Assembly (NCBI RefSeq): GCF_020886775.1
Contig: NZ_AP024525.1
Location: 2,418,001-2,482,000, forward strand
Length of the DNA: 64,000 nt
Source of the DNA: Sinomonas cyclohexanicum
GTDB taxonomy: Bacteria; Actinomycetota; Actinomycetes; Actinomycetales; Micrococcaceae
Reading direction: 5' to 3'
Positions 6,286 through 45,921 of the stretch are shown in pieces. The notes under the pieces were generated by a model. The model did no database searches. It had not been told where the DNA came from and saw only the letters and a list, made by a program, of their open reading frames with translations. Position 1 is the first letter of the stretch. Every line of letters begins with the position of its first letter. The translations under genes and the position numbers were made by a program.

Positions 6286-6924
6286 CTACGTGGACAAAAG
6301 GCTCTCTCCGTCCGGGTGCGCGGCGTCCCGCGTGCCCTCGCCTGGCGCTTCGCCCTCAGGGGCGCCTTCCGCCTCGGGCTGCCCGTCGCGGCCGTACGGC
6401 GCCTCGTCCTCATCGAGGAAGGCGGGGTCGTCGAACTCCGTCGGTTCCGGCCCGAAAGGATCCTCGACCACCGCGTCCAGGTGCACCTCGCCGGTGCCCG
6501 GGTTCACCGCTCCAACTCCCTCGACATACGCAGGCCGGTCCGCGAGACGACGGGAGTCTTCCTCGTCCCGCCGCCGGTTCCACGTCGCCATGCCCATGGC
6601 AAGGTCCTGCCCCACGGAGGACGCGGTGATCACGGCCTCGCTGCCGAAGGTCCCATCAGCCCGCTGGAAGGTACGCAGCTGCAGCCGGCCCACGACGATG
6701 ACGCGCTGGCCCTTGCGGATGCTCGCGGCGACGTTGTCCGCCATCTCGCCGTAGCACTGGATGGTGAACCAGTTGGTGTGCCCGGTGACCCAGGCCTGCC
6801 GCTCATGGTCCTTCCACCGCTCAGTCACGGACATCCTGAACCGCGCGTACAGCCGATTGTGCCTCGTGAGACCCTTGGTCGGCTCGGTCCCCACCCAGCC
6901 GCGCATCGTGATCGAGTCGCTCAT
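6286..6924 (-). CDS. ssb: single-stranded DNA-binding protein, second (SsbB-like) type
   Basis: This 212-residue protein has an N-terminal OB-fold domain (SITMRGWVGTEP to about residue 115, with WFTIQCYGEMADN and VGRLQLRTFQ) that coats single-stranded DNA. The long C-terminal tail is acidic and Gly/Pro-rich but ends GESLLST and lacks the DDIPF-type acidic tip that recruits partner proteins in replicative SSBs. It is not beside rpsF or rpsR, where replicative ssb normally lies. Both points indicate a paralogue, as in Streptomyces SsbB. The ATG is fixed by AGGAGG just upstream. A paired TCCACA element lies about 100 bases before the start. Confidence 0.9.
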   Translation of the reverse strand: MSDSITMRGWVGTEPTKGLTRHNRLYARFRMSVTERWKDHERQAWVTGHTNWFTIQCYGEMADNVAASIRKGQRVIVVGRLQLRTFQRADGTFGSEAVITASSVGQDLAMGMATWNRRRDEEDSRRLADRPAYVEGVGAVNPGTGEVHLDAVVEDPFGPEPTEFDDPAFLDEDEAPYGRDGQPEAEGAPEGEAPGEGTRDAAHPDGESLLST

Positions 6925-7021
6925 GCCGCCACCTCCTGGTGCCAGTTGCCACGGCCGCCGTCTGGCGACCTGCGACCAGCCTCCCGGTGCACACCGACCG
7001 GAGGAAGCCGCACCACCCCGC

Positions 7022-7060
7022 ATGTGGACGACGCGCCGGGTCGAGCACCTGTGGAGGAGT
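7022..7060 (-). promoter_or_regulatory. paired TCCACA element upstream of ssb
   Basis: On the plus strand TGTGGACGA (7023-7031) and TGTGGAGGA (7050-7058) lie 27 bp apart as direct repeats. About 30 of 38 positions match 45548-45586 upstream of yraN-comM-dprA. The boxes resemble DnaA boxes. Whether this is a promoter, a competence operator or a DnaA site is inference. Confidence 0.5.
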
Positions 7061-7129: not shown

Positions 7130-7202
7130 GCCCCAGTAGCTCAGAGGATAGAGCAGGAGCCTTCTAATCTCTTGGTCGGGGGTTCGATTCCCTCCTGGGG
7201 CG
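7130..7202 (+). tRNA. tRNA-Arg (anticodon TCT)
   Basis: A complete cloverleaf with acceptor arms GCCCCAG and CTGGGGC, a GCTC/GAGC D-stem, anticodon loop CTTCTAA and T-arm GGTTCGATTCC reads AGA codons. The anticodon stem has a C-T mismatch at position 31-39. No CCA is encoded. The next base (7203) is already the stop codon of the convergent GH2 gene. Confidence 0.95.
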
Positions 7203-9983
7203 CTATCCGACCGCGCCGGCGTCTGCGTGGAGCTCGAGCGAGAGCCTGAAACGCCGCGCATCCACGTCATGCTCCTCATCCATCGTGACCCACAGCCACT
7301 CGGGATCGTCCACGAGATCCGCGGCGTGGGCTGTCGCGGCCAGCGACTCGGACGTCCACGGCCGGACCGCCAGGATGAATCCCTCGCCCCGCACCGTGAA
7401 CCGTGATCCGGCCCCCGAGAGCTCGGCCCACCTCACGCCGCGGCGCGCGCCGTTCTCCTGCGGCCTCGGGAACGGAGTCTGCAGACCGGCCACGCCGGAC
7501 GAGAAGCGGCCCTGCCTGACCGCGAGGGAAGCACCCGGATACGCTTCTGATGGACCGAGCCCCACCCATCGCACCATGTTGAGGGCCCGCGGAACGGCCA
7601 TCTGCACGCCCAGCCTGGGGACCGGCAGTGTCCAGGGGCCGAGCGGCGAGCCGACGACGTCAAGTCCCAGGCCGCCGTCGTGCCCCCTCCAGCGGTACTC
7701 GACCTCGTAGCCCACATCCGTGCCCGCAGGCATGACATGGGCGACGACGCTCAGCGCGTTCTCCTCGGGGGCCATGGAGACGGTGCGGTGGCACAGCCTG
7801 TCCAGCCCGAGCTCCCGCCATGCCCTGGCGCGGGACTCGTCCAGTCCACGCTCGTCTCGGTCGGTGGGAGCACGCCACAGGTCCAGGCGCGGCCCGAGGA
7901 CGGGAATGCCGCTGAGCCCCACCAGCCGCCCCGAGGGCTCGAAGCGTCCCGCCCCGAGGTCCCACCCTCCGTCCGGGCGCGCGACGGCGGGCGCATCTCC
8001 GGGCGGGCGCGCAGGCCGATGCGCCGGGCGACGCCGCTCTTCGCCGCCCTCCACGATCCGGGTCTGGCCCCATGCGACCTCGTGGCCCGCCGGCGCCCAC
8101 GGCGTGCCGGCCGGGAGCTCCGCACTCACCGTGAGCCATCGCTGTGCGCCAGCCGGCCGCGCGGGCGTGGGCGAGGCAGGCTCGGGCAGCGGCACGAGCA
8201 CGTGCTCCCCCGGCCCGAGCTCTGGCACCTCGAGGCCACCCGAGGCGACCGGCTCGCCGTCATCCTCGATCCGGAAACGGAAGCGCAGGTGGCCCGTGCT
8301 GCGATGACCGTACCTCGAGGTGACCGCGACGCCATCGCGCGAAGAACTGATCGTGACCGGCGCGTACGCGCGGGCCATCTCCAGGAGACCCGGCAGGGGC
8401 GTGTGGTCAGGGGCCAGAAGACCGGTCCACTCCCCCACGAAGCCGCCGGCGAGCCGGGGGTACTCCTCGAACAGCTCCACGTACTCGCCGAGACCGGCCG
8501 TGCCGATGCCACCGACCCGCGCTTCCTCGCACAGCACGAACGGCAGGGCACGGCGTCGGCGGTCCGCGCGCAGATCCGGGGCCGGCGCCTCCTCGCCTCG
8601 GCCGACGAGCTCGGTCTCCGCCGGGCCGATGTCCGCGCGGGCGTAGACATCGGCCGACTCGCCGTCCAGATCGCCCACGTAGAGCACGAACCGTTCAGGG
8701 TCGCGGGCGCGGACCCACTCGGCCATGGCGTCGAGGTTGGCTCCCCTGCCCGAATCGCCGCCGAGCGACCAGCCGATCACGCAGGGATGGTTCTTGCCCT
8801 GCTCGACCATGCGCTGCGTCCGGTCCAGCAGGGCGTCCCGCCACGCGGGCTCCGCTCCCGGGTTCCGGCGCCACTCGACACGCTCGAACGGATGGGTGTC
8901 CAGGCCGCACTCGTCGACGACCCAGAGGCCGTACTCGTCGCACAGGGCGAGGAAGCGCTCGTCCGGAGGGCAGTGGCCGGTCCGAACGGCGTTGATGTTG
9001 TGCCGCTTCATCAGCTCGACGTCTTCGCGCGTGGCCCCGCCAGACGCACGGTTCACACCTCGCAGCCTCACGGGGACCCCGTTGGCCAGGAGCGTCGCGT
9101 CCCGGATCGCGACGCTCCTGAAGCCCACGGTGATCTGGACGGTCTCCAGGGGCGTCGGATCGCCCACGGAAACGGTCCCGCGGTACAGCCGGGGCACCTC
9201 CGCGCTCCACGGCTCGACGCCGGGGACGGCCACCTCCTCGTTGGCAAGCACCTCGATCCCCAACTCCGCAAGACGCACGACGGCGCCCGGCGGCCCTTCG
9301 ACGGACAGTCGCCCCGTGCGGGTGGCGGCGTCGAACGCCGCGTGGACGAAAAGGTCGTCGAGCCCTCCGTCCGGACGGTTCAGAAGGCTGACGGTCCCGG
9401 TGATGCCAGGGCGCCGTCCGCTCGCGCGGCCTTCCAGGTACGACCCGGCCGACCACTCGTGCACGCGCACAGCCAGGAGGTTGCGGCCCTCGAAGAGATG
9501 GGCCGTCACGTCGAACTCGTGCGTGAGGCATGAGCCCATCGCGTCGCCGACCCGAGTGGCGTTGATGAACACCTCGAATCCCGAGTCGACGCCCTCGAAG
9601 CGCAGCAGCCACCGGCCGCGGCCCGGCGCGTCGGGGAGATCGAACCAGGCCCGGTACTCGCCCGTGCGGTTCTCGTCCGGGACCTCGGGCGGATCCACCG
9701 GGAAGGGGTAGCCTCCGGCTGCGGGGTCGGTCGGGGCTGTGGCCGTGCCGCCGGTCTCCCAGGAGTGCGGCACCCGTATGCGTTCCCAGCGGGAGTCGTC
9801 ATAGTCCCGCGCCTCGAATCCGGTGCCCGCGCCCGCTGGGACGTGGGAGAGGCGGCGGAAGGACCACGCGCCGTCGAGCGTCATCCGAACGGCATCGGTG
9901 TCCAAGGCGGCCCGCGCCGGAAGCGCCGCGTGGTGGGGTGCCGTGTCGGCGAACCACGCGCGCTCCGGGCGGGCCGGGGTCAC
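7203..9983 (-). CDS. glycoside hydrolase family 2 (beta-galactosidase-like), atypical active site
   Basis: This 926-residue protein has the LacZ-type layout: N-terminal jelly roll (GEYRAWFDLPD region), Ig-like domain, TIM barrel (LRGVNRASGG onward) and a C-terminal small-chain beta domain. The nucleophile region LCEE (E486) is kept. The acid/base motif, normally WSLGNESGHG, reads WSLGGDSGRG, so the catalytic Glu is Asp (D410) and the preceding Asn is Gly. The metal-site ETH motif reads DTH. It may hydrolyse an unusual beta-galactoside-like substrate or be weakly active. The GTG start overlaps the upstream mannosyltransferase stop by four bases (GTGA). No signal peptide is seen. Confidence 0.85.
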   Translation of the reverse strand: MTPARPERAWFADTAPHHAALPARAALDTDAVRMTLDGAWSFRRLSHVPAGAGTGFEARDYDDSRWERIRVPHSWETGGTATAPTDPAAGGYPFPVDPPEVPDENRTGEYRAWFDLPDAPGRGRWLLRFEGVDSGFEVFINATRVGDAMGSCLTHEFDVTAHLFEGRNLLAVRVHEWSAGSYLEGRASGRRPGITGTVSLLNRPDGGLDDLFVHAAFDAATRTGRLSVEGPPGAVVRLAELGIEVLANEEVAVPGVEPWSAEVPRLYRGTVSVGDPTPLETVQITVGFRSVAIRDATLLANGVPVRLRGVNRASGGATREDVELMKRHNINAVRTGHCPPDERFLALCDEYGLWVVDECGLDTHPFERVEWRRNPGAEPAWRDALLDRTQRMVEQGKNHPCVIGWSLGGDSGRGANLDAMAEWVRARDPERFVLYVGDLDGESADVYARADIGPAETELVGRGEEAPAPDLRADRRRRALPFVLCEEARVGGIGTAGLGEYVELFEEYPRLAGGFVGEWTGLLAPDHTPLPGLLEMARAYAPVTISSSRDGVAVTSRYGHRSTGHLRFRFRIEDDGEPVASGGLEVPELGPGEHVLVPLPEPASPTPARPAGAQRWLTVSAELPAGTPWAPAGHEVAWGQTRIVEGGEERRRPAHRPARPPGDAPAVARPDGGWDLGAGRFEPSGRLVGLSGIPVLGPRLDLWRAPTDRDERGLDESRARAWRELGLDRLCHRTVSMAPEENALSVVAHVMPAGTDVGYEVEYRWRGHDGGLGLDVVGSPLGPWTLPVPRLGVQMAVPRALNMVRWVGLGPSEAYPGASLAVRQGRFSSGVAGLQTPFPRPQENGARRGVRWAELSGAGSRFTVRGEGFILAVRPWTSESLAATAHAADLVDDPEWLWVTMDEEHDVDARRFRLSLELHADAGAVG

Positions 9984-42340: not shown

Positions 42341-43591
42341 CTAGTGGGCGCTGCGCGTCCGGTGCCAGCCGCCCTCGGTACGCTCGGCGAGACCGAGCAG
42401 GGACAGTCTTCCGAGTCCTGCCCGGATCTCCGCCTCGCTCAGGCCCGCGACCACCGCGAGGTGTTCGACCTCGGAGCCTCGCCGGACGGGGAGCGCTTCG
42501 AGAACCATGAGGTCCACGAGCGAGAGGCCGTCGTGGGGCCTCGACGGTGTCGCTTGGTCTTCCACGAGCCCCTCGCCGGTCGGGGAGATGAGTTCGAAGG
42601 CTTCCTTCGCCTCGGTGACGCACGTGGCCCCCTCCCTCAGGAGCCGGTGGCACCCCGCCGAGTTGGCGCTGTACACGGATCCGGGGACGGCCGCGACGTG
42701 ACGCCCCAGCTCGACGGCCCGGCGGGCGGTGCTCAGGGCCCCAGAACGCCAGCGGGCCTCCACCACGATGGTGAGGGCGGACATCGCCGCGATGAGGCGA
42801 TTCCTCTTCAGGAAGCGATGTTTGGATGGCGAAGCCCCGGGCGGCAACTCGGAGACGAGATGCCCTCGTCTGGCCACCTCACGGAGGAGCTCCTCGTGGC
42901 CCGACGGGTAGTAGCGGTCCACCCCGCCCGCGAGGATCGCCACCGTTGGCACGGAGGGACCGGAGGATGTCAGGGCGGCACGGTGGGCCTGCCCGTCGAT
43001 GCCGTACGCACCCCCGCTGACGATGGTCACGCCCAGGTCCGCGAGGCCACGGGCCAGCTCCCCCGCGACCGAGAGCCCATATCCCGTGGCATCCCGTGAT
43101 CCGACGACGGCCACGCTCCGGTCCGTAGCGGGCAGCGGCTCCTCCCCGCGGACCCATAGGCAGAGAGGGGCCTCGGCGCCCAAGTCTCTGAACCCGGCCG
43201 GCCACTCGCGGTCCTCCGGCGTTACGATCCTGCCCCCGAACCTGGCGATCGTCTCGAGGTCCCGCTCGGGCGCAAGCTGGGACACTCTGGGCCGCCACCT
43301 CTCGAGGGCCCCCGCCAGGGTGCCCAGCGGCGCCGACGTGCTCGATCGTCCCTGCCTCCCGCCGGACGGATCGAGCACCGCCGCCATCTCGGCGATCTCG
43401 GCGCCGGAGGCGCCGCCGGTCGCGATCCGCAGGGCCTCCGCGGGACCGAAAGCCTCCACGAGCAGAGTCCCCATTGGGTCGAGAGGCTCGAACAGGCGAG
43501 AGAGGGCCGCCCGTGCAACGCGTGTCTGGTCCATGTCTCCCCCGTCTGCGGAGCCGAGCCAGCCGCCGCGTGCCTGATGTTGGATGCTCAT
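42341..43591 (-). CDS. dprA: DNA-processing protein DprA
   Basis: This 416-residue protein has the Rossmann-like DprA core (VAVVGSRDATGYG, VSGGAYGIDGQAHRAAL, LAGGVDRYYPSGH) and a C-terminal winged-helix-like segment. DprA loads RecA on incoming single-stranded DNA during natural transformation. The ATG overlaps comM by four bases, placing it in a yraN-comM-dprA operon. About 100 N-terminal residues form the usual helical extension. Confidence 0.95.
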   Translation of the reverse strand: MSIQHQARGGWLGSADGGDMDQTRVARAALSRLFEPLDPMGTLLVEAFGPAEALRIATGGASGAEIAEMAAVLDPSGGRQGRSSTSAPLGTLAGALERWRPRVSQLAPERDLETIARFGGRIVTPEDREWPAGFRDLGAEAPLCLWVRGEEPLPATDRSVAVVGSRDATGYGLSVAGELARGLADLGVTIVSGGAYGIDGQAHRAALTSSGPSVPTVAILAGGVDRYYPSGHEELLREVARRGHLVSELPPGASPSKHRFLKRNRLIAAMSALTIVVEARWRSGALSTARRAVELGRHVAAVPGSVYSANSAGCHRLLREGATCVTEAKEAFELISPTGEGLVEDQATPSRPHDGLSLVDLMVLEALPVRRGSEVEHLAVVAGLSEAEIRAGLGRLSLLGLAERTEGGWHRTRSAH

Positions 43592-45141
43592 GCCGCCATC
43601 ACCGCCTGCCTCAGCATGAGTGCCTGCCCCACTTCGTCGCTGCCGGGCCGGTCGATGCCCGCGAGATCGGCCACAGACCAGGCAAGCCGGAGCACGCGAT
43701 CGAAGCCGCGGGCGGTGAGGGTGTTCGTGATCATGGCCCGGTCCAGCATTCCGGTGGCGCCCGGATCGAGGCGGAGCTGACCACGCAGCAGCCGCCCAGG
43801 GACCTGCGCGTTGGTCTCGAGCCCGAACGGCTGAAGCCGGTCAGCCTGCCTCCTCCTGGCCTCCAGCACCCGAGCGGCAACGTCCGCCGTGGTCTCGCCG
43901 ATCGCACCGGCACCGAAGTCGACCGCCGAGACCTTGCTCACCGGCAGCTGGATGTCGACTCGGTCCATGAGTGGGCCGGAGATCCGCCCGAAGTACCGCA
44001 TCTTGGCCTGTGCGCTGCACGTGCAGTCCAGGCCCTTGCCGGTGCCTTTGCCACATGGACATGGGTTCGCCGCAAGGACGAGCTGAAACCGCGCCGGGTA
44101 CGCCGCCGTCCCAGCCATGCGGTGGATCACGAGCTCACCGCTCTCAAGCGGCTCCCGCAGCGAGTCCAGGACACGCCGGTCATACTCGGGGGCCTCGTCG
44201 AGGAACAAGACGCCGCGGTGGGCCCGGGACGCGGCCCCGGGCCGGGGCAGCCCCGACCCGCCGCCGATGATCGCGGGGGCGCTGGCTGTGTGGTGGGGAC
44301 TCTCGAAGGGTGGACGGCGGATCAGGTCCTCCCGGCTGCCGGGTACCCCGGAGAGGGAGTGGATCGCCGTCACTTCCATGGCAGCCTCGTCGTCAAGGTC
44401 CGGCAGGATGCCGGGAAGCCGCTCCGCGAGCATCGTCTTGCCAGCACCCGGGGGCCCGACGAGCATGAGGTGATGGCCGCCTGCAGCGGCGACTTCGACC
44501 GCCGCGCGGGCCTCGGACTGGCCGGCCACATCGCGCAGGTCCGGCTCGCCGAGGAGGGACCGTGACCGGGCCGGACCAACGGGCCCGGACGGCGCCGCAT
44601 CCCGGGCCGGTGGGATCGAGACGGCCGCCGGATCCGCTCCGAGATCGAGCGCGAGGTGCCCGAGAGACTCGTACGCGTGCACGCGGGCACCCGGCACGAG
44701 GGACGCCTCGTGCGCGTTCGCCGTTGCGACCACCACATCGGGCCGGCTGGCCCGCACGGCCGCCATCACCGCGGGGAGCACGCCCCGCACCGGCCGGAGC
44801 TGGCCGTCGAGGCCGAGCTCGGCGAGGAACACGACGCCCGCCGGCGGCCGGAGATCCCCGCCCGCCGCGAGAGAGGCCACAGCAATGGCCAAATCGAAGC
44901 CCGTCCCTCGCTTGGGCAGGGAGGCCGGAACGAGGTTCACCGTGATCTTGCGCCGGCTCAGCGGCAGTCCGCTGTTCTTCGCTGCGCTGCGGATCCGCTC
45001 GCGGGCCTCGCTCAGGGCGGAGTCCGGCAGCCCGAGGAGCACAAAGTTGGGGAGGCTCTGGCCGATGTCCGCCTCGACCTCGACGAGATAGCCGTTGAGC
45101 CCCACGAGCGCCACCCCAAGCGCCCTCCCGACCCCGGACAT
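43588..45141 (-). CDS. comM: ComM/YifB Mg-chelatase-like AAA+ ATPase
   Basis: This 517-residue protein has an N-terminal Lon-protease-like segment (ALVGLNGYLVEVEADIGQSLPNFVLLGLPD), Walker A GPPGAGKTML, and a Cys-rich insert (NPCPCGKG, DCTCSAQ) in the AAA+ module. ComM is a hexameric helicase that extends recombination intermediates during transformation. Its ATG overlaps the yraN stop by one base (TGATG), so translation is coupled. Confidence 0.95.
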   Translation of the reverse strand: MSGVGRALGVALVGLNGYLVEVEADIGQSLPNFVLLGLPDSALSEARERIRSAAKNSGLPLSRRKITVNLVPASLPKRGTGFDLAIAVASLAAGGDLRPPAGVVFLAELGLDGQLRPVRGVLPAVMAAVRASRPDVVVATANAHEASLVPGARVHAYESLGHLALDLGADPAAVSIPPARDAAPSGPVGPARSRSLLGEPDLRDVAGQSEARAAVEVAAAGGHHLMLVGPPGAGKTMLAERLPGILPDLDDEAAMEVTAIHSLSGVPGSREDLIRRPPFESPHHTASAPAIIGGGSGLPRPGAASRAHRGVLFLDEAPEYDRRVLDSLREPLESGELVIHRMAGTAAYPARFQLVLAANPCPCGKGTGKGLDCTCSAQAKMRYFGRISGPLMDRVDIQLPVSKVSAVDFGAGAIGETTADVAARVLEARRRQADRLQPFGLETNAQVPGRLLRGQLRLDPGATGMLDRAMITNTLTARGFDRVLRLAWSVADLAGIDRPGSDEVGQALMLRQAVMAA

Positions 45142-45497
45142 CAGGCCACGCCTCTGAGGTGCTCGATCACGGGCTGAGACCCCGGGGGCCCGGTCACCGC
45201 GATGACGTCAACACGCCGCGGACCGCCATCCACCCCATGCGCCGATGCCCACGCCGCGAGCAGCCGCACCAGGCGTCCCAGCTTGGCGGGGCCCACCGCC
45301 TCGAACGGGTGGCCGAAGTCCCACGAGCGCCGCGACTTCACCTCAACAGCGACAAGCGTTCCAGCGTCAGCCGCCACGATGTCAAGCTCACCGTCACGGC
45401 ACCGCCAGTTGCGGTCCAAGATCGCCGCACCGGCCTCCCGCAGATAGTCCTCCGCGAGACGTTCCCCGCGCTGACCGAGTCTGTCCTTGGCTCTCAT
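45141..45497 (-). CDS. yraN: YraN/UPF0102 nuclease-like protein
   Basis: This 118-residue protein has the PD-(D/E)xK-type core GELDIVAADAGTLVAVEVKSRR (Asp, Glu, Lys) and the N-terminal GQRGERLAEDYL. The family looks like Holliday-junction-resolvase-type nucleases, but activity is unproven. It is the first gene of the yraN-comM-dprA operon. A paired TCCACA element that also precedes ssb lies 52-90 bases upstream of its ATG. Confidence 0.93.
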   Translation of the reverse strand: MRAKDRLGQRGERLAEDYLREAGAAILDRNWRCRDGELDIVAADAGTLVAVEVKSRRSWDFGHPFEAVGPAKLGRLVRLLAAWASAHGVDGGPRRVDVIAVTGPPGSQPVIEHLRGVA

Positions 45498-45547
45498 GGG
45501 ACAACGCTCGCGCGGCCAGACGAACCCCGTAAGAGGGTCCGCGCCCT

Positions 45548-45586
45548 ATGTGGACAACACGCCCGGCATGCCCCTGTGGAGGAGAA
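45548..45586 (-). promoter_or_regulatory. paired TCCACA element upstream of yraN-comM-dprA
   Basis: On the plus strand TGTGGACAA (45549-45557) and TGTGGAGGA (45575-45583) are direct repeats 26 bp apart. The 39-base element matches about 30 of 38 positions of 7022-7060 upstream of ssb. The first box is an exact complement of the actinobacterial DnaA box TTGTCCACA. Confidence 0.55.
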
Positions 45587-45597
45587 GTCAGGAACCC

Positions 45598-45921
45598 CTA
45601 CGTGCCCAGCCCGCCCTTGGGAAGCCCCAGATCCTCGACCTTCGGCAGTTCCTCGACGTTGACGTCCTTGAAGGTAATGACCCGAACACTCTTGACGAAG
45701 CGCGCGCTGCGGTAGACATCCCAGACCCACGCGTCCTGCAGGGTCAAGTCGAAGTAGACCTCGCCGTCCGCCGAGCGAGCCTGGAGGTCTACGTGATTGG
45801 CGAGGTAGAACCGGCGCTCCGTCTCCACCACATAGCTGAACAGCGAGATGACATCCCGGTACTCGCGGTAGAGCTGCAGCTCCATGTCGGTCTCGTAGTT
45901 CTCAAGGTCTTCGGCGCTCAT
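45598..45921 (-). CDS. DUF2469 family protein
   Basis: This 107-residue protein, MSAEDLENYETDMELQLYRE to the acidic C-terminus, is highly conserved in actinobacteria and always lies next to rnhB. It contains FSYVVETERRFYLAN and VYFDLTLQDAWVWDVYR. The function is unknown. It overlaps rnhB by four bases. Confidence 0.93.
   Translation of the reverse strand: MSAEDLENYETDMELQLYREYRDVISLFSYVVETERRFYLANHVDLQARSADGEVYFDLTLQDAWVWDVYRSARFVKSVRVITFKDVNVEELPKVEDLGLPKGGLGT

Follow-up and report, generated by a model that had tools for sequence, protein, structure and literature searches.

A paired TCCACA element before competence genes of Sinomonas, a probable switch that turns on natural transformation

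The window analysed here is a stretch of 64,000 nucleotides from Sinomonas cyclohexanicum (positions 2418001–2482000 of a genome of one contig, 4,413,566 bases). Ahead of yraN-comM-dprA, positions 45548–45586 read ATGTGGACAACACGCCCGGCATGCCCCTGTGGAGGAGAA and contain TGTGGA twice as a direct repeat, beginning at 45549 and 45575, that is 26 apart. The same direct repeats, 27 apart, begin at 7023 and 7050 within 7022–7060, before the second ssb gene. Both elements have the same orientation to their gene (yraN ATG at 45497, ssb ATG at 6924, both on the minus strand). On the gene strand, the element consists of CCTCCACA, a TCCACA 26–27 bp later, a −10-like hexamer 40–45 bases further on and, at many sites, an ATG at +51 to +53. 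The features are as follows.

45575..45583, minus strand: distal box of the predicted yraN-comM-dprA operator (TCCTCCACA on the gene strand, TGTGGAGGA on the plus strand)
45549..45557, minus strand: proximal box of the predicted yraN-comM-dprA operator (TTGTCCACA on the gene strand); its TCCACA part is predicted at about −57 to −52 from the transcription start
45504..45509, minus strand: −10-like hexamer GAGCGT, 40–45 bases past the proximal box, at a position conserved among sites
45141..45497, minus strand: yraN (UPF0102), ATG at +52 from the proximal box, predicted to be leaderless
43588..45141, minus strand: comM (Mg-chelatase-like ATPase)
42341..43591, minus strand: dprA (DNA_processg_A)
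7023..7057, minus strand: predicted two-box operator of the second ssb, boxes 27 bp apart
6978..6983, minus strand: −10-like hexamer GAGGCT before the second ssb, 40–45 bases past the proximal box
6286..6924, minus strand: second ssb (SSB family), ATG at +99 from the proximal box

When the two elements were compared with one gap allowed, 31 of the first 38 bases were identical, and the runner-up place on either strand of the window matched at 25 of 38. The first-pass annotation had pointed out a paired element shared by yraN-comM-dprA and ssb in the same orientation, and had noticed no further intergenic copy in the window. The observation holds, and only 2 of the 8 genome-wide matches described below fall in the window. 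The bare two-box core at a fixed spacing of 26 with 2 mismatches was found 4 times in the window against 3.07 expected, which is not significant. No standard sigma-70 promoter was found at 45400–45700. As the ssb ATG lies at +99 from the proximal box, a leader is predicted for the ssb transcript. A tRNA-Arg gene (anticodon tct; 7130–7203, plus strand) adjoins the ssb operator.

We scanned the whole genome with the pattern TGTGGA-N18..24-TGTGGAGG and used the reversed pattern as control. Eight two-box matches were observed with the pattern and none with the control. One of them (L001) was set aside because it is without the extended form. Six of the remaining seven are close to that form, with boxes 26–27 apart; the seventh, which stands before an AbiEi_4 gene and has boxes 29 apart, resembles it more loosely. 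The six close sites precede comEA-comEC, the second ssb, yraN-comM-dprA, cpaB (SAF/RcpC), the tadZ-tadA-T2SSF operon (tadZ is TIGR03815, a CpaE homologue; tadA is T2SSE and is followed by T2SSF) and an operon of a small protein that has no Pfam/NCBIfam match and was read as WXG-like. Longer patterns, allowing up to three mismatches, added three sites in this genome and none in the control; they stand before genes for a DUF4192, a DUF559 and a short AbiEi_4 protein, and all three genes have their ATG at +51 or +52.

Several of the accessory gene types recur behind the operator. AbiEi_4/DUF559-type genes are found there three times in the S. cyclohexanicum genome (L010 8128–8164, L313 and L314), and also at L044, L051, L055, L060, L069 and L032; family searches were run on L005, L032, L060, L313 and L314, with L060 falling under the cut-offs, and the rest were assigned by eye. 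WXG100/T7SS-signal-like small proteins stand behind it in more than one genus (L013 7569–9463, L050, L062, L054, L064, L065, L078 and L080; several by eye), and the WXG-like gene of S. cyclohexanicum is followed by one for a larger protein without a Pfam match. DUF4192 genes carry the operator in three genomes of two genera (L315 2811–4175 of S. cyclohexanicum, L036 and L037, the last by eye), with ATG at +52 or +53, and the operator would thus link DUF4192, which is of unknown function, to competence.

Among the Sinomonas genomes, three were read site by site, and in all three the five core competence units (comEA-comEC, yraN-comM-dprA, the second ssb, cpaB and tadZ/tadA) carry the element. 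The 28 sites read comprise the 7 of S. cyclohexanicum, all 13 of genome G006 and 8 of the 9 of genome G037. The five core units, once per genome, account for 15 of them; 5 precede AbiEi/DUF559 genes, 4 WXG or WXG-like genes, 2 rpsF-ssb operons and 1 an M23 peptidase gene, and 1 is unassigned, most of these classes having been assigned by eye and family searches having been run for some examples. The 13 sites before genes outside the core competence set count against a competence operator. The presence of the element before all five core units in each of the three genomes supports the proposal, made in the first-pass annotation, that it is the operator of a competence regulon, and we consider that proposal right in substance.

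A pattern of one box with −10 and ATG matched at 25 places in 13 of the 15 Sinomonas genomes and nowhere with the control. As judged by eye, six of these places precede cpaB and four precede antitoxin-like genes, and others, including both places in S. cyclohexanicum, have no evident link to competence. The two one-box matches of S. cyclohexanicum have no distal box and precede, by eye, a GntR-like regulator and a membrane protein. In four Sinomonas genomes, the operator is followed by a Phd-like antitoxin gene, again assigned by eye (L186, L190, L196 and L199). M23 peptidase genes with the operator are present in two genera (L053 and L021, L021 by eye); such a peptidase could possibly serve cell wall opening or lysis in competence.

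We then aligned the sites on the proximal box (the logo and the counts of ATG and TAnnnT left out L001 only; the weight matrix left out six matches, L001, L017, L022, L041, L042 and L043). Apart from two bases right after the box, the clearest downstream signals were a −10-like hexamer at 40–45 and, in Sinomonas, a start codon at about 52. An ATG at 51–53 past the proximal box was present at 18 of the 28 Sinomonas sites, 10 of 22 sites from three further genomes and 14 of 30 sites taken one per genome, where the rates at other positions (0.15, 0.39 and 0.38 per position) predict only ∼0.5 to 1.2 per group. TAnnnT starting at 39–41 was seen at 8, 9 and 9 sites of these groups, respectively; many sites are without a perfect TAnnnT, and the two window sites have the hexamers listed above. 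TAnnnT also lies ahead of the start in 54 of 67 comEA regions, all chosen for having a box. The sequence conserved in Sinomonas extends to GGCG.GT ahead of the proximal box and A.T ahead of the distal box.

The distance between the boxes is 26–27 in 24 of the 28 Sinomonas sites and 28 in 32 of the 52 others. Despite this difference in box spacing, the −10-like signal stays at 40–45 in both sets. If transcription starts at the ATG, the −10 hexamer would occupy −12 to −7 and the distal box would lie at about −81, with the TCCACA of the proximal box between them at −57 to −52. Judged by sequence, this is the layout of an upstream activator, and the −10-like signal at a fixed distance, together with a poor −35, agrees with an activator-dependent sigma-A promoter. 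A spacing of 26–28 bp corresponds to about 2.5 helical turns, which is odd for two cooperating sites.

In 100 Micrococcaceae genomes, the two-box pattern gave 175 matches against 17 for the control, and 46 genomes had matches. Outside Sinomonas we read 9 of the 11 sites of genome G024, 10 of 11 of G076, 3 of 8 of G025 (picked by eye) and a single locus from each of 30 further genomes; the sites of G084 and G096 were left out. The targets in these other genera include ssb, yraN, comEA, cpaB, tadZ and a ComF-like gene (TIGR00201, under its cut-off), and further a RadC-type UPF0758 N-terminal domain, M23 peptidase, WXG and T7SS_signal proteins, DUF4192, DUF222-HNH, DUF559 and DUF2461. A survey of the genome and its relatives had been proposed as the way to judge the idea, and its outcome is positive: matches precede comEA/comEC, dprA and pilus genes, and they are neither scattered without gene preference nor confined to replication genes.

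Upstream regions of 15 yraN and 11 ssb genes of family members (one of 16 yraN loci gave no yraN, and one of 12 ssb loci had no usable start) contain, by eye, similar boxes with a −10-like sequence in many cases. For yraN at 20 loci outside Sinomonas (20 of 22 genomes, two with partial comM matches being left out), a box lies 51–68 bases before a plausible start in 11, with no sharp spike; three loci of family f22 are among the nine without a box. A strict pattern of two boxes, perfect TAnnnT and ATG was too strict as a probe for the whole order, as it matched in 3 of 297 genomes and missed S. cyclohexanicum. A short RadC-type gene with the UPF0758 N-terminal domain only (L034) stands behind the operator, and radC is a competence gene in other bacteria. 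At L078 (3062–3097), a DUF3263 gene, presumably encoding a helix-turn-helix protein, follows a two-box match without the usual −10 geometry; it may be a regulator or a chance match, and with such a site we did not retain it as the regulator.

The comEA gene allowed the element to be followed further. We collected the 80 comEA loci most like the S. cyclohexanicum ComEA among the matches listed, a choice in which Arthrobacter and its kin are over-represented, and assigned Actinomycetota from record titles. TCCAC[AC] lies 50–54 bp before an in-frame comEA start at 37 of the 50 Actinomycetota loci and at 1 of the 30 other loci among these best 80. The distances are sharply placed, with 12 boxes at 52, 19 at 53 and at most 4 at any other distance. 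Of these 37 boxes, 22 come from the 26 loci of presumed Micrococcaceae genera and 15 from the 24 outside, among them Leifsonia, Microbacterium, Brevibacterium, Actinomyces and Actinomadura. The N-terminus of ComEA is conserved (M followed by RHRW or similar), which supports the start at that place.

Within the family, comEA was examined in 41 of 61 genomes, and 28 of the 41 loci have a box at 50–54 (TCCACG allowed); a second peak of 13 at distance 80 is the distal box. Nine of the 13 loci without an exact box have one with one mismatch, one of them at an unlikely start, and such a match is easily met by chance. Of the 151 genomes of the phylum in which comEA was matched, 37 outside the family were examined, and the box was present in 1 of the 3 from the order, 3 of the 8 from other orders of the class (all 3 from family f21, none of the 5 from f22) and 2 of the 26 from other classes. 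In the low-G+C genus g27, comEA of both species has TCAACA, and as the ssb of one of them keeps TTATCCACA, we do not claim a genus-wide switch of the operator. From these sequences, comEA genes over much of the Actinomycetes have the proximal half in common, together with its promoter geometry, and this is the strongest addition to the original idea.

The main rival, already named as such in the first-pass annotation, is that the TCCACA boxes are bound by DnaA, which would itself control the competence genes and thereby couple transformation to the replication state. TCCACA is the core of the DnaA box, 12 of 67 comEA boxes read TT[AG]TCCACA (including those of Rothia, Actinomadura and the large-genome family f21), and TTATCCACA occurs in several distant lineages. 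On the other hand, 50 of the 67 have no TT at positions 1–2 and only 15 fit TTNTCCACA, which agrees poorly with a regulon of DnaA boxes. This poor fit weakens the DnaA explanation, although its force is tempered by the S. cyclohexanicum boxes between dnaA and dnaN (genes named by eye), which are equally loose before TCCACA (TTG, CTA, TCA, CTT, GGA, TTA and GTT). We had also taken TCCACC-type boxes as proof against DnaA; this argument was dropped, because three relatives have TTGTCCACC or TTATCCACC in their box clusters as well. It also speaks against DnaA that the Sinomonas sites conserve bases well beyond the 9-mer, that TCAACA, TCCCCA or CCCACA stands at the same distance before some comEA genes, that the distal box is of a CCTCC type and that the sites stand before competence genes and keep a fixed distance to the −10. 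We therefore regard control by DnaA as unlikely.

An operator for a repressor that is relieved in competence, for example a Mlut_14660-like HTH_17 protein, appears improbable to us. Boxes at −54 and −81 are unusual for repression, and their constant distance to the −10 suggests activation. In favour of a repressor, the missense change R64W of Mlut_14660, re-inserted in a reporter strain of Micrococcus luteus, reproduced the raised comEA/EC promoter phenotype (PMC8467076). A rough signature search for HTH_17 in the collected loci, including beside cpaB and with a weak gene call, found none, which weighs little. It is highly improbable that the two boxes are themselves the −35- and −10-like elements of an alternative, ComX-like competence sigma factor. 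Such a factor would account for an element common to competence genes and for the spacer of 20–22 bases between the hexamers in most sites; however, a separate −10-like signal follows at 40–45 and a start codon at 51–53, which places the proximal box at about −54, too far upstream for a −10 element.

The predicted operator has partial parallels in known competence systems. ComK-activated promoters of Bacillus subtilis have a pair of variably spaced boxes ahead of a sigma-A promoter and serve comE, comF, comG, ssb and dprA-type genes; the arrangement and the gene set are alike, but ComK boxes are A/T-rich. The cin-box of the ComX/sigma-X regulon of streptococci is likewise one short signal for late competence genes, including ssbB, dprA and radC, but it is a promoter read by the sigma factor, whereas the element here is followed by a −10 distinct from it. 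CRP-S/Sxy (TfoX) sites of Haemophilus and Vibrio are activator sites, as predicted here, that define a regulon including comM, dprA, ssb and pilus genes; they differ in sequence and in their palindromic form. DnaA boxes share the TCCACA core, and the element differs from them in that its conserved flanks are longer (in Sinomonas), its distal box is of a CCTCC type, its promoter geometry is fixed and its targets are competence genes.

The competence literature on M. luteus covers comEA/comEC, tad genes and mutants (PMC4322843, PMC8467076, PMC6667448, PMC12849477). In it, deletion of Mlut_14650 (cpaB) lowered transformation 10^4-fold (PMC8467076), ComK is stated to be absent (PMC4322843, PMC12849477) and a 2026 paper states the competence regulon to be unknown (PMC12849477). 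The machinery is the same, and cpaB carries the element here; the accessible parts of PMC4322843, PMC8467076 and PMC12849477 describe no operator, and no description of the element was found among the titles and abstracts that searches of the open-licence literature listed.

The reading we prefer, with a probability of roughly 0.7, is that an activator of leaderless, sigma-A-type competence promoters has its operator in this element, with boxes near −54 and −81. The repeats, their geometry, their target genes and their conservation are features of the DNA itself; protein binding, activation and the position of the transcription start we infer from them. The activator would bind the two direct repeats, the distal CCTCCACAgg and the proximal TCCACA, ahead of a sigma-A-type promoter whose −35 is weak. 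Bound at about −54 and −81, it would stimulate RNA polymerase in a class-I-like manner. With the −10 placed 40–45 bases past the proximal box, the transcript would mostly begin at the ATG, that of ssb having a leader, and genes of DNA uptake and processing would be turned on together with accessory genes. For Sinomonas, the paired signal is probably the switch that had been missing for natural transformation, and many other Actinobacteria appear to have a simpler form of it.

A wider proposal, to which we give even odds on this sequence evidence, is that natural competence has a dedicated master activator, conserved in much of the class Actinomycetes, whose TCCACA operator keeps a fixed place at about −54 in leaderless com promoters, and that its regulon in Micrococcaceae includes gene families without an assigned role (DUF4192, AbiEi/DUF559 and DUF222-HNH) as well as WXG100/T7SS-signal and M23 peptidase genes. 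If this is true, these would be competence genes, perhaps for DNA release or processing. The defined operator could serve as bait for the regulator, it provides a list of candidate new competence genes, and it may predict which species can become competent.
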